Assembly (NCBI GenBank): GCA_025924355.1
Contig: JAICEE010000005.1
Span: 1 to 33,056 of the forward strand
DNA from: Nitrososphaera sp.
GTDB taxonomy: Archaea; Thermoproteota; Nitrososphaeria; Nitrososphaerales; Nitrososphaeraceae
Direction of reading: 5' to 3'
Length of the DNA: 33,056 nt
The notes under the pieces are model-generated. The model saw only the letters and a program-made list of their open reading frames with translations. It was not told where the DNA came from and ran no database searches. The translations under genes were made by a program, and so were the position numbers. This document shows, one piece after another, positions 29,788 through 32,435 of this stretch (positions are counted from its first letter, which is position 1; the number at the start of each line of letters is the position of its first letter).

Positions 29788-30090
29788 TTGGAGAAGCTGA
29801 ACAGGCTTGTAGAGCAGGCCAAATCAATTGTTCTTGAAAGTAGCAACCCAGACAGGATGTCGCTATGGCGTGCCTACGTGGCCCTTGAATACGCAATATT
29901 GGATCTGAAATTACGTCACGGCCTTGAGGGGAATCCTCCCCCCAAGCCTGTCAAGTCAGCAGACCTTGCTGCTGCAAAATCAATGATTGGTAGGCTTAAT
30001 CTATCATCCAGCGACAAGAAAAAACTGCTCTATGACCTGCGCTCATGCAGGGATATCGTAAAGGCGCTGGTGGCAAGTAAGCTACGATGA
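29788..30090 (+). CDS. helical hypothetical, 100 residues
   Basis: A small, highly helical, basic-tailed protein (NRLVEQAKSIVLESSNPDRMSLWRAYVALEYAILDLKLRHGLEG; SSDKKKLLYDLRSCRDIVKALVASKLR) with a Pro-rich linker (NPPPKPVKS) between two helical halves. No family recognised. The start is TTG. The 3' end overlaps convergent purA by 9 bp. Confidence 0.62.
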   Translation: MEKLNRLVEQAKSIVLESSNPDRMSLWRAYVALEYAILDLKLRHGLEGNPPPKPVKSADLAAAKSMIGRLNLSSSDKKKLLYDLRSCRDIVKALVASKLR

Positions 30091-31089
30091 CCTGCGGTCT
30101 ATAACATCGTAGACCTCTCTTCCCGTGCCAATTAGGGTCACCTTCAGGCCGGTCTCGCCTTCAATGTTTTCAATGAATTTTTTTGCATTCTCTGGCAACT
30201 TTGTGTATTCGCGCAAGCCTGCAGACCGTGGGAAAATGACGTCCAGCTTTGTGACTGCAACTTGCGTTGCACTGTTGAGCCTGATCGCTTTCTTGGCAAG
30301 CTCCATATCAAAAGGCGCAGCCCTCCTCTGCCTGCCTGTGACGCTCCCATGCTCGATCCAGCCGCGCTTTCTTGCCTCTTCTTCGCTCAGCTCATTATCA
30401 AGCGGTCCGCTGCCAACACGTGTAACATATGCCTTAAAGACCACTAGTATTTCGTCGACTCTTTTTGGTCCAATGCCAATATGTGAACAGATGCCAGAAG
30501 CAGTCACGTCACTTGATGTGACATAGGGATAGCCACCATGAAACAGCGACAAATAAGTGCCCTGTGTCCCTTCCACTATCACCCTCTCATTGTTGTGTAG
30601 AGCATAGTTAACTGAATTGCTGACATCTTCCATGTAAAGCGATAATTCTGGAATGTCTCTTGCAAGCTTGAGCCTCCGGAGCGCTCTGTCAGCATTAGCC
30701 GGGCCAGTTCCGGTGCCTGTAGTGCCCACCTTGCTCTTGAGGTGGTCTTCGCCTATGTCACGGTCAATATGTATTTGCTCAATGATGCCGCACTGACTGT
30801 CCACAAATGTCCTGTCGTCTGCCTGAAACTTCTCTATTTCATCTACCAAAACCTGCGGGTTGACAAGTACTCCCGCGCCTACCAAAAGCCTAGTTGTCGG
30901 GTTGAGTACAGCACTTGGTAACATGCGCACCTTGTACTCCTTGCCTTCGAAAGTAAAAGTGTGACCTGCATTTGGACCAACGCCTCCACGCACAGCAACC
31001 GCAGGGTTGTCCTTTTTCGCCAAGTAGGCTATAATCTTGCCCTTTCCTTCATCTCCATAGAATCCGCCGACTGTAACAAGGCATGGCAT
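30082..31089 (-). CDS. purA: adenylosuccinate synthetase, short archaeal form
   Basis: GTP-dependent condensation of IMP and aspartate, the first step from IMP to AMP. The N-terminal GGFYGDEGKGK is the nucleotide/catalytic motif, followed by GGVGPNAGHTF; VGTTGTGTGPANADRALR binds IMP; EGTQGTYLSLFHGGYPYVTSSDVTASG is conserved. At 335 residues it is about 90 shorter than the bacterial enzyme, as usual in archaea. Divergent from the gene at 31166. Confidence 0.95.
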   Translation of the reverse strand: MPCLVTVGGFYGDEGKGKIIAYLAKKDNPAVAVRGGVGPNAGHTFTFEGKEYKVRMLPSAVLNPTTRLLVGAGVLVNPQVLVDEIEKFQADDRTFVDSQCGIIEQIHIDRDIGEDHLKSKVGTTGTGTGPANADRALRRLKLARDIPELSLYMEDVSNSVNYALHNNERVIVEGTQGTYLSLFHGGYPYVTSSDVTASGICSHIGIGPKRVDEILVVFKAYVTRVGSGPLDNELSEEEARKRGWIEHGSVTGRQRRAAPFDMELAKKAIRLNSATQVAVTKLDVIFPRSAGLREYTKLPENAKKFIENIEGETGLKVTLIGTGREVYDVIDRRSS

Positions 31090-31165: not shown

Positions 31166-31618
31166 ATGAATAATGCAGCTGGCAACATCATCCAAATACT
31201 TGCAGACCTGCCGGATTTTTTGCGAAAACAAATGCTGCAAAACCGTCTCAAAGAGTTCTATGAAATGAGCGATGACGAAAAGAGCGAAATGATAAACATG
31301 GCATTAGCAGCAGCGCCCACGATAGATCCAAATAAATTGTCTATCCTTTTCAAGACCTGGCTTGAATTATTATCAGAATTTGATGCAGAAAAGCGTGGAG
31401 TGATGTTCCAGACCTACTGCATGCAGATTTTGGCAAATCCTTGCTCTATTACAAAGCTTGACTTTAAGTCGTTGACCACTGCTTTTGTGTCACTTAATCA
31501 AGTACAGCGAGAGCGCCTAACAGATTCATTGCATGAAGTGCTCCTCGGTATGCCAAACAGGAGCAAAATAATAAAGATGATTCCGGAGCACTCGCTAAAA
31601 ACTGTCGGGCTGAAATGA
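31166..31618 (+). CDS. helical hypothetical, 150 residues
   Basis: All-helical soluble protein without cysteine clusters or membrane segments. The parts ADLPDFLRKQMLQNRLKEFYEMSDDEKSEMINMALAAAP and KLSILFKTWLELLSEFDAEKRGVMFQTYC look like repeated helical hairpins, and a third similar helical unit follows (LTTAFVSLNQVQRERLTDSLHEVLLGMP), so an internal repeat is possible. No family recognised. The stop codon is directly adjacent to the end of the convergent zinc-ribbon gene. Confidence 0.65.
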   Translation: MNNAAGNIIQILADLPDFLRKQMLQNRLKEFYEMSDDEKSEMINMALAAAPTIDPNKLSILFKTWLELLSEFDAEKRGVMFQTYCMQILANPCSITKLDFKSLTTAFVSLNQVQRERLTDSLHEVLLGMPNRSKIIKMIPEHSLKTVGLK

Positions 31619-31894
31619 TTAGTGATGGTGATGTTCGTGTTGCGTCTCGGGGTTGTCCGGCTTTTTTTCTATTTCGCCAATACCCTTTTCAAGTCCAAAG
31701 AACGCCCTCTCATACTTGCGGAGCGCCTTTCTGTGTTCTGGCAGTGACATATCCAGTCTCATCTCGTTCATGACCATGACAGCATAAGTGGTCCACTCCT
31801 TCCAGCATGCAGAGCATGCAGGGTACTTCTCAGCAGCTGGATCCTCGATAATCTCCCCAAAAGTCTTACCACACCTCAAGCAAGTCTTACTCAT
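31619..31894 (-). CDS. zinc ribbon fused to a YggX-like (Fe(2+)-trafficking) domain
   Basis: A 91-residue protein from this ATG. Residues 5-30 hold two CxxC knuckles (CLRC and CSAC) of a zinc or iron-binding ribbon. Residues 31-66, WKEWTTYAVMVMNEMRLDMSLPEHRKALRKYERAFFG, match the second half of bacterial YggX, a small protein linked to iron handling and oxidative protection (WxxW...MxxNExRLN...L...FFG pattern). The C-terminus ends QHEHHHH, a natural metal-binding tail. The TTG at 31900 adds two residues and is less likely. Role in iron trafficking is inference. Confidence 0.72.
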   Translation of the reverse strand: MSKTCLRCGKTFGEIIEDPAAEKYPACSACWKEWTTYAVMVMNEMRLDMSLPEHRKALRKYERAFFGLEKGIGEIEKKPDNPETQHEHHHH

Positions 31895-32270: not shown

Positions 32271-32435
32271 ATGAAGGTTCACTGTCCTGACTGCAAGGAA
32301 GCTGCAGAGCTGGCAGATGATTTTTCATTTGTCAAGTGCTCTAACTGTTCATTTGATATGACTTATGGCGAATACGTAAAGTACATAGCGTATAAGGACT
32401 CGCGCTACCGAGATATACTTTCAGACTACAAATAA
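32271..32435 (+). CDS. 54-residue zinc-ribbon protein
   Basis: A short gene starting ATG. The N-terminus MKVHCPDCKEAA and the later VKCSNCSF give two CxxC knuckles (Cys5, Cys8, Cys23, Cys26) 14 residues apart, a compact zinc ribbon. The C-terminal half is aromatic and charged (DMTYGEYVKYIAYKDSRYRDILSDYK). Its own TATA box and the stem-loop after the stop support expression. Partner unknown; such tiny ribbons usually bind nucleic acid or another protein. Confidence 0.72.
   Translation: MKVHCPDCKEAAELADDFSFVKCSNCSFDMTYGEYVKYIAYKDSRYRDILSDYK

Follow-up and report, generated by a model that had tools for sequence, protein, structure and literature searches.

A four-cysteine variant of the YggX family in ammonia-oxidizing archaea, with a probable metal site in its core

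Introduction

Archaeal ammonia oxidizers carry out much of the world's nitrification. The window analyzed here, the whole 33,056-nucleotide stretch of a Nitrososphaera sp. contig, contains a small gene that raises a question about metal handling in these organisms. The initial annotation described its product as a zinc ribbon joined to a YggX-like domain, with three potential metal sites, and suggested a role in the handling of iron or copper. Is the protein a member of the YggX family, how many metal sites does it appear to possess, and which function can be proposed for it? Studies of YggX in enteric bacteria report that it binds Fe(II) weakly. A four-ligand form in the same fold makes it possible to probe directly the role of the N-terminal core and the identity, iron or zinc, of the metal in it. 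In addition, a small protein that is present in nearly all of the ammonia oxidizers examined, in a conserved neighborhood, merits functional attention.

The gene and its protein

The gene (31619..31894, minus strand) was taken from a program-made list of open reading frames and is further marked as a four-cysteine YggX-like gene by Pfam PF04362, by homologues, and by the predicted fold. It runs from an ATG start to a TAA stop and encodes 91 amino acids. A TTG codon six bases upstream of the ATG could give a protein of 93 amino acids. The ATG is preferred because close relatives open with MSK or MTK at that position. In order, the protein contains CLRC (residues 5-8), CSAC (residues 27-30), WKEW, VMNEMRLDMSLPEHRK, and a terminal HEHHHH, with W31, W34, and VMNEMRLDMS among its residues. 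The two CxxC pairs, the YggX-like helix, and the histidine end that had been claimed are thus all present in a real open reading frame.

The first CxxC, an N-terminal knuckle, is encoded at 31871..31882 and the second, at the start of the main helix, at 31805..31816, both on the minus strand. The main helix and the one that follows it (residues 28-65; 31700..31813, minus strand) carry CWKEW, NEMRLDMS, and HR, the YggX signature region, as seen from invariant columns and from the region of the Pfam match. The assembly of the window has 991,503 bases and is 66% complete. Of 101 related genomes, 70 (that of the window among them) have a homologue at E <= 0.001, and every one of the 83 distinct proteins read from ammonia-oxidizer families has CxxC-(17 to 19)-CxxCWxxW. 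The set of motifs is therefore not a product of chance. The remainder of the signature is less strict, and some ammonia-oxidizer proteins have ND instead of NE, or H or K instead of R.

Relationship to the YggX family

The window protein is a homologue of YggX. This is borne out by a Pfam score above the cut-off, by profile-profile comparison, by two predicted structures compared with the PDB, and by a chain of intermediate sequences. The Pfam match to Iron_traffic (PF04362) is barely over the cut-off (28.6 bits versus 27) and joins residues 29-67 to profile positions 37-75 of 88 only. The NCBIfam equivalog model for oxidative damage protection protein, PRK05408.1, gives 33 bits, which is below its cut-off of 74. 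Thus, the protein is filed as a relative inside the Pfam family and not as an equivalog of canonical YggX. The PDB sequences matched at E < 0.01 are the YggX entries 1yhd, 2mzy, 1t07, and 1xs8. A profile search of the PDB sequences also returned four entries, all of them YggX, and the alignments shown for 1t07 and 2mzy are without the extra cysteines. A plain pairwise match to E. coli YggX spans 31 residues. When 16 archaeal sequences were compared as a profile with eight canonical bacterial YggX sequences, the probability was 98.2% (E 3.7e-14). The residues W31 and W34, NEMRL, and C5 fall in columns aligned with the conserved YggX tryptophan pair, the NExRL motif, and the N-terminal cysteine.

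To obtain intermediate sequences, five deep thaumarchaeal sequences served as queries against named genomes. The single pattern used was narrow and 10 loci were confirmed; the four-cysteine form is therefore under-sampled in bacteria. Seven are thaumarchaeal MAG loci (L101-L107) with CxxC...CxxC and a bacterial-like middle, and a further thaumarchaeal locus (L110) has a short middle. A Myxococcales MAG locus (L108) also has CxxC...CxxC, and a delta-proteobacterial MAG locus (L109) has a single N-terminal cysteine. The Myxococcales locus matches E. coli yggX by tblastn with 39.7% identity (E 7e-7). Nine four-cysteine relatives, five archaeal and four bacterial including the Myxococcales one, were searched against Pfam and all nine scored above the cut-off of 27 (33-63.6 bits). 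The match extends over most of the profile in six and over part of it in the other three (L110, L159, and L171; L159 at 44.5 bits). The four-cysteine archaeal protein is thus well supported as a variant of the known YggX family.

A single tblastn scan of viral contigs found no relative, and the three genes searched against PHROGs had no match. An archaeal YggX is not mentioned in the titles and abstract openings of the open-licence PMC literature that pairs YggX with archaea. That literature likewise returned nothing on an iron-trafficking protein with Nitrososphaera, nothing mentioning PF04362, nothing on an oxidative damage protection protein with Thaumarchaeota, and nothing combining ammonia-oxidizing archaea, core genome, zinc finger, and iron.

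Predicted fold and position of the cysteines

Two AlphaFold models were built on small alignments of 8-11 sequences. The first used the window protein with ten relatives (mean pLDDT 77), and the second used it with seven archaeal four-cysteine relatives and no bacterial sequence (mean pLDDT 76). Helices are predicted at about 19-23, 28-44, and 52-65 in both, and the C-terminal blocks from residue 71 on have a mean pLDDT of 43-55. No metal is included in the prediction. In Foldseek searches of the PDB, the top three matches for both models were YggX. They were the sole clear matches (probability 0.98-1.00), with modest E-values of 0.009-0.08, none of which is below 0.001. Structure comparison with YggX gave Z-scores of 8.6, 7.7, and 6.6 for the first model and 8.9, 7.9, and 6.7 for the second, from residue 1 to residues 71-74. 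The best of these (8.6 and 8.9) are just above the level of about 8 that the tool warns of for common arrangements, and the sequence evidence concurs with them. The comparison that had been proposed as a check on the YggX relationship therefore came out in its favor.

The proposed architecture did not stand. Window residues 1-71 as a whole align to residues 4-82 of YggX 1yhd, so the CxxC pairs belong to the N-terminal part of the YggX fold and are not an added ribbon. A ribbon fused to YggX was rejected; there is no extra N-terminal domain, and a Pfam ribbon model scores 12.3, below its cut-off of 27. Nor do two knuckles precede the conserved helix, for the second CxxC (residues 27-30) lies at the start of the helix predicted at 28-44.

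The ligands of a treble clef are nevertheless all there, with the knuckle formed by CxxC 5-8 and the second pair at the start of the core helix. Of the beta-hairpin expected between knuckle and helix, both models show only strand pieces of two residues each, at 3-4 and 11-12. Treble clefs besides YggX reach at most Z 2.1 in the structure comparisons, which is not evidence against a treble clef. In an alignment of 77 sequences, the two CxxC pairs stand opposite a canonical C..L (in places C..F, C..Y, or C..H) and S..A or S..G. The first cysteine of the first pair aligns with the lone N-terminal cysteine of E. coli YggX, and the second aligns with a leucine. A fold survey, in the part of its text available, lists YggX among treble clefs whose characterized members are without zinc (PMC4999995). 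Its supplement describes YggX further and may already mention relatives with ligands.

These observations reduce the three metal sites that had been counted. Two separate knuckle sites were rejected, as the four cysteines should make one four-ligand site. C5, C8, C27, and C30 probably bind one metal in the protein core, because four cysteines are kept where the well-studied bacterial YggX keeps one. The count becomes one probable core site and an optional tail.

Distribution among archaea

In a draw of 300 genomes from the phylum, 50 match the Pfam model at E <= 0.01, 34 of them above the cut-off, and 49 match a model of archaeal AmoA. All 49 AmoA-positive genomes are among the 50, and the one remaining is the incomplete assembly of the window. 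A draw of 201 genomes from the order was searched with the 16-sequence profile. The protein was found in 122 genomes, AmoA in 108, and both in 106. Two genomes of this draw (G024 and G078) have AmoA without the YggX-like protein. The opposite state was seen in 16 of the 93 genomes that were without AmoA. Four of the 16 belong to one family, f1 (G000, G027, G035, and G055), and are 66-95% complete; the other 12 belong to families f11, f14, and f17. Five of these 12 were read (L066-L070); the CxxC pairs are separated by 24 residues in four and by 17 in L066. The archaeal protein occurs twice in one genome (G355), on separate contigs (C40 and C81).

The ammonia oxidizers are close kin. The co-occurrence with AmoA is therefore confounded and does not count as independent support for a functional link; the match between the two may reflect one inheritance event.

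Gene neighborhood

The neighborhood was examined at 65 loci from ammonia-oxidizer families, and the misses among these include loci cut by contig ends. Downstream of the YggX-like gene is a conserved gene for a protein of 150 amino acids with no assigned function (31166..31618, plus strand). It is present in 63 of the 65 loci, always convergent, so that the two genes lie tail to tail, and the stop codons are no more than 60 nucleotides apart in 57 of the 63. The stop-to-stop gap is -4 in 12 of the 63. No convincing Pfam or NCBIfam match was found for this neighbor. It is present in 115 of the 201 genomes of the order draw, five of these in families f10, f14, and f17.

Upstream is a gene for a zinc-ribbon-like protein of 54 amino acids with two CxxC pairs (32271..32435, plus strand), which was found in 27 of the 65 loci and is divergent in 26 of those 27. 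The same assembly has a second, nearly equal match to it (G000:C14:20447-20608; 118.2 versus 119 bits), and many relatives carry a second, weaker match. The third neighbor (30082..31089, minus strand) is an adenylosuccinate-synthetase-like gene, presumably purA from its sequence, and is on the same strand in 55 of the 65 loci. None of the three was found near the five deeper loci L066-L070, and the conserved neighbors provide no iron or redox context.

The histidine tail

The terminal HEHHHH (residues 86-91; 31622..31639, minus strand) is genus-specific and predicted to be disordered, as can be seen from the comparison of tails and codons and from pLDDT. When the 991,503-base assembly was searched for HEHHHH plus a TAA or TGA stop, with codon degeneracy allowed, the YggX-like gene was the one hit. 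The terminal residue is histidine in 18 of 18 genomes searched of the window's genus. At least three histidines are present in the last ten residues of 11 of 17 distinct proteins from this genus, with a range of one to five, and related tails in the genus include HHGHHH, HSGHMH, and DHMH. The histidine codons are a mixture of CAC and CAT that changes between close relatives. In other ammonia-oxidizer genera, 66 of 66 distinct proteins have no histidine in the last ten residues. Conservation of the tail in relatives, which had been named as a check, is thus confined to one genus and is of variable strength within it. The tail was accordingly rejected as a family-wide trait and as a defining third site.

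Cysteines in bacterial relatives

The earlier statement that bacterial YggX lacks an N-terminal CxxC fits canonical YggX. As a rule for the family at large it was rejected, since all four cysteines were found in 13 of 71 fetched loci from the phylum of the Myxococcales genome (L112, L143, L145, L149, L159, L160, L162-L164, L167, L168, L170, and L171). The family is present in 84 of 282 genomes of this phylum, at 86 places, of which 71 were read; the 15 left out are 14 with mid-range scores and the weakest one, which is under the cut-off. In a second bacterial phylum, in which 39 of 45 genomes have the family, four cysteines were found in none of the 30 fetched loci. Nine places were unfetched there, and one of these is that of L109/L111, a single-cysteine protein.

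Intermediate states are also present in the first phylum. Three cysteines are found in two loci (L144 and L155), and five loci have none of the four (L156, L158, L161, L165, and L166). These five have aspartate in place of the first cysteine and open frames of 216-364 codons. A tree of 77 sequences, asked to omit the cysteine columns, requires at least five changes of the four-cysteine state; L066 and L168 were left out, the former because of a very long branch in a 68-sequence tree. In that 68-sequence tree, the ammonia-oxidizer proteins form one clade with a support of 100/100, and many other forks are unresolved. Both trees were built on chosen subsets of loci and are unrooted, giving no direction of change. 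It is possible, if rather unlikely, that a four-cysteine, metal-holding YggX was ancestral. The zinc-less form of Proteobacteria would then be a degenerate descendant, and archaeal ammonia oxidizers would have retained the metal form and remodeled it as a nearly universal cell component, perhaps guarding Fe-S enzymes against the NO and oxidants of ammonia oxidation.

Possible functions

From the homology, the predicted fold, the conservation of the site, and its distribution, we lean somewhat toward a YggX in which the complete four-cysteine site is a zinc brace and the surface shared with other YggX proteins serves the upkeep of Fe(II) or Fe-S clusters; what we infer is which metal is bound, that its role is structural, and that the protein acts on iron or Fe-S clusters. 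A single ion, Zn(II) being the most likely one, would be held jointly by C5, C8, C27, and C30, and the site would brace the treble-clef-like N-terminal part onto the long helix at its first turn. In canonical YggX the core is the same and three of the four ligands are missing. Many bacterial relatives are without the ligands, whether by loss or for lack of gain, and retain the remainder of the protein; this suggests a bracing role for the metal site and not that of the active part. The working surface would then be what is common to both forms, the tryptophan pair, NExRL, and two helices, and it would most likely serve cytoplasmic Fe(II) or Fe-S cluster upkeep, as proposed for YggX. In the available portions of the sources, the roles proposed for YggX are protection of Fe-S clusters and trafficking or binding of Fe(II) (PMC1360075), and a Kd for Fe2+ of about 1e-6 M is listed for S. 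enterica YggX (PMC9268430). By this analogy, an archaeal iron-handling protein is our best guess. The published function was obtained in enteric bacteria and may not carry over to archaea.

The cysteines could instead be the working part of the protein, either binding Fe(II) directly in a rubredoxin-like manner or acting as a redox switch, which would make it an iron carrier or a sensor of oxidants. The four cysteines are invariant in the ammonia-oxidizer proteins read (83 of 83), and canonical YggX keeps one at the first position. Portions of the literature report that canonical YggX binds Fe(II) weakly (PMC9268430, PMC3989283) and that NO is a key intermediate of archaeal ammonia oxidation (PMC6308003). 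We nevertheless regard this reading as unlikely. In many bacterial relatives, between one and four of the cysteines are absent from an otherwise retained protein, which suggests that the cysteine site is dispensable for the shared activity. In addition, an N-terminal CxxC with a second CxxC at the start of a helix is the ordinary layout of a structural zinc site. Less likely still is that the ammonia-oxidizer protein has left iron handling and is now a zinc finger associated with nucleic acid or the ribosome. Zinc fingers, treble clefs included, have many functions, among them nucleic acid and protein binding, according to the part of the fold survey available (PMC4999995). The weak structural match to a nuclear-receptor DNA-binding domain (Z 2.1) would agree with such a function, but this value is the reporting floor. 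The zinc-ribbon-like neighbor would agree with it as well, but was not found nearby in 38 of the 65 loci, a number that includes loci truncated at contig ends. The YggX signature region, moreover, is largely kept.

With the zinc-braced YggX still preferred for the core, the tail can be considered separately. It would be a disordered, genus-specific addition outside the core mechanism that may loosely pick up divalent metal. Neutral drift is a real possibility for this crowded end of the gene, where convergent stop codons abut and tail length wanders, although we place it a little short of even. The stop-to-stop gap is 0 in seven loci, the window included, and -15 to +30 in 54 of 63, and both the length of the tail and its number of histidines vary. 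Against drift, the terminal histidine is found in all 18 members of the genus despite the changes of codon, in a sample of one genus. The last residue staying histidine while its codons change hints at selection on the protein at the tail. That the tail is a functional site of a copper- or nickel-handling protein is very improbable. HEHHHH and kindred ends, with their mixed codons in 18 of 18 genomes, are what speaks for it. Other ammonia-oxidizer genera likewise depend on copper, yet none of their 66 distinct proteins has tail histidines, and even within the genus the final ten residues contain anything from one to five. The copper handling first suggested found no backing, since Pfam and NCBIfam scans gave no match to a copper family and nothing else spoke for copper. 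The words "YggX" and "trafficking" are absent from the main text of a study of copper limitation in N. viennensis (PMC7785015), to the extent that this text was available.

Comparison with known systems

The closest known system is YggX itself (PF04362; 1yhd, 1xs8, 1t07, and 2mzy). The window protein resembles it in the fold over residues 1-71, the tryptophan pair, NExRL, the first cysteine, and a size of about 90 amino acids. It differs in having four cysteines instead of one, in being archaeal, and in carrying a C-terminal extension of its own. The gene neighbors also differ from those of E. coli yggX, whose record shows mutY and mltC. Treble clef zinc fingers share with it a CxxC knuckle followed by a CxxC at a helix start, whereas the strand pieces predicted in the window protein are only two residues each and its zinc site is a predicted one. 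The four-cysteine proteins of bacteria, which bear no separate name in the sources consulted, have CxxC...CxxC[W/Y] in the same columns (12 of 13 by alignment, L168 by motif) and the same signature, but a longer stretch between the CxxC pairs. Among archaea, the spacing of the pairs is 17-19 residues in ammonia oxidizers as compared to 24 in the deep relatives L067-L070.
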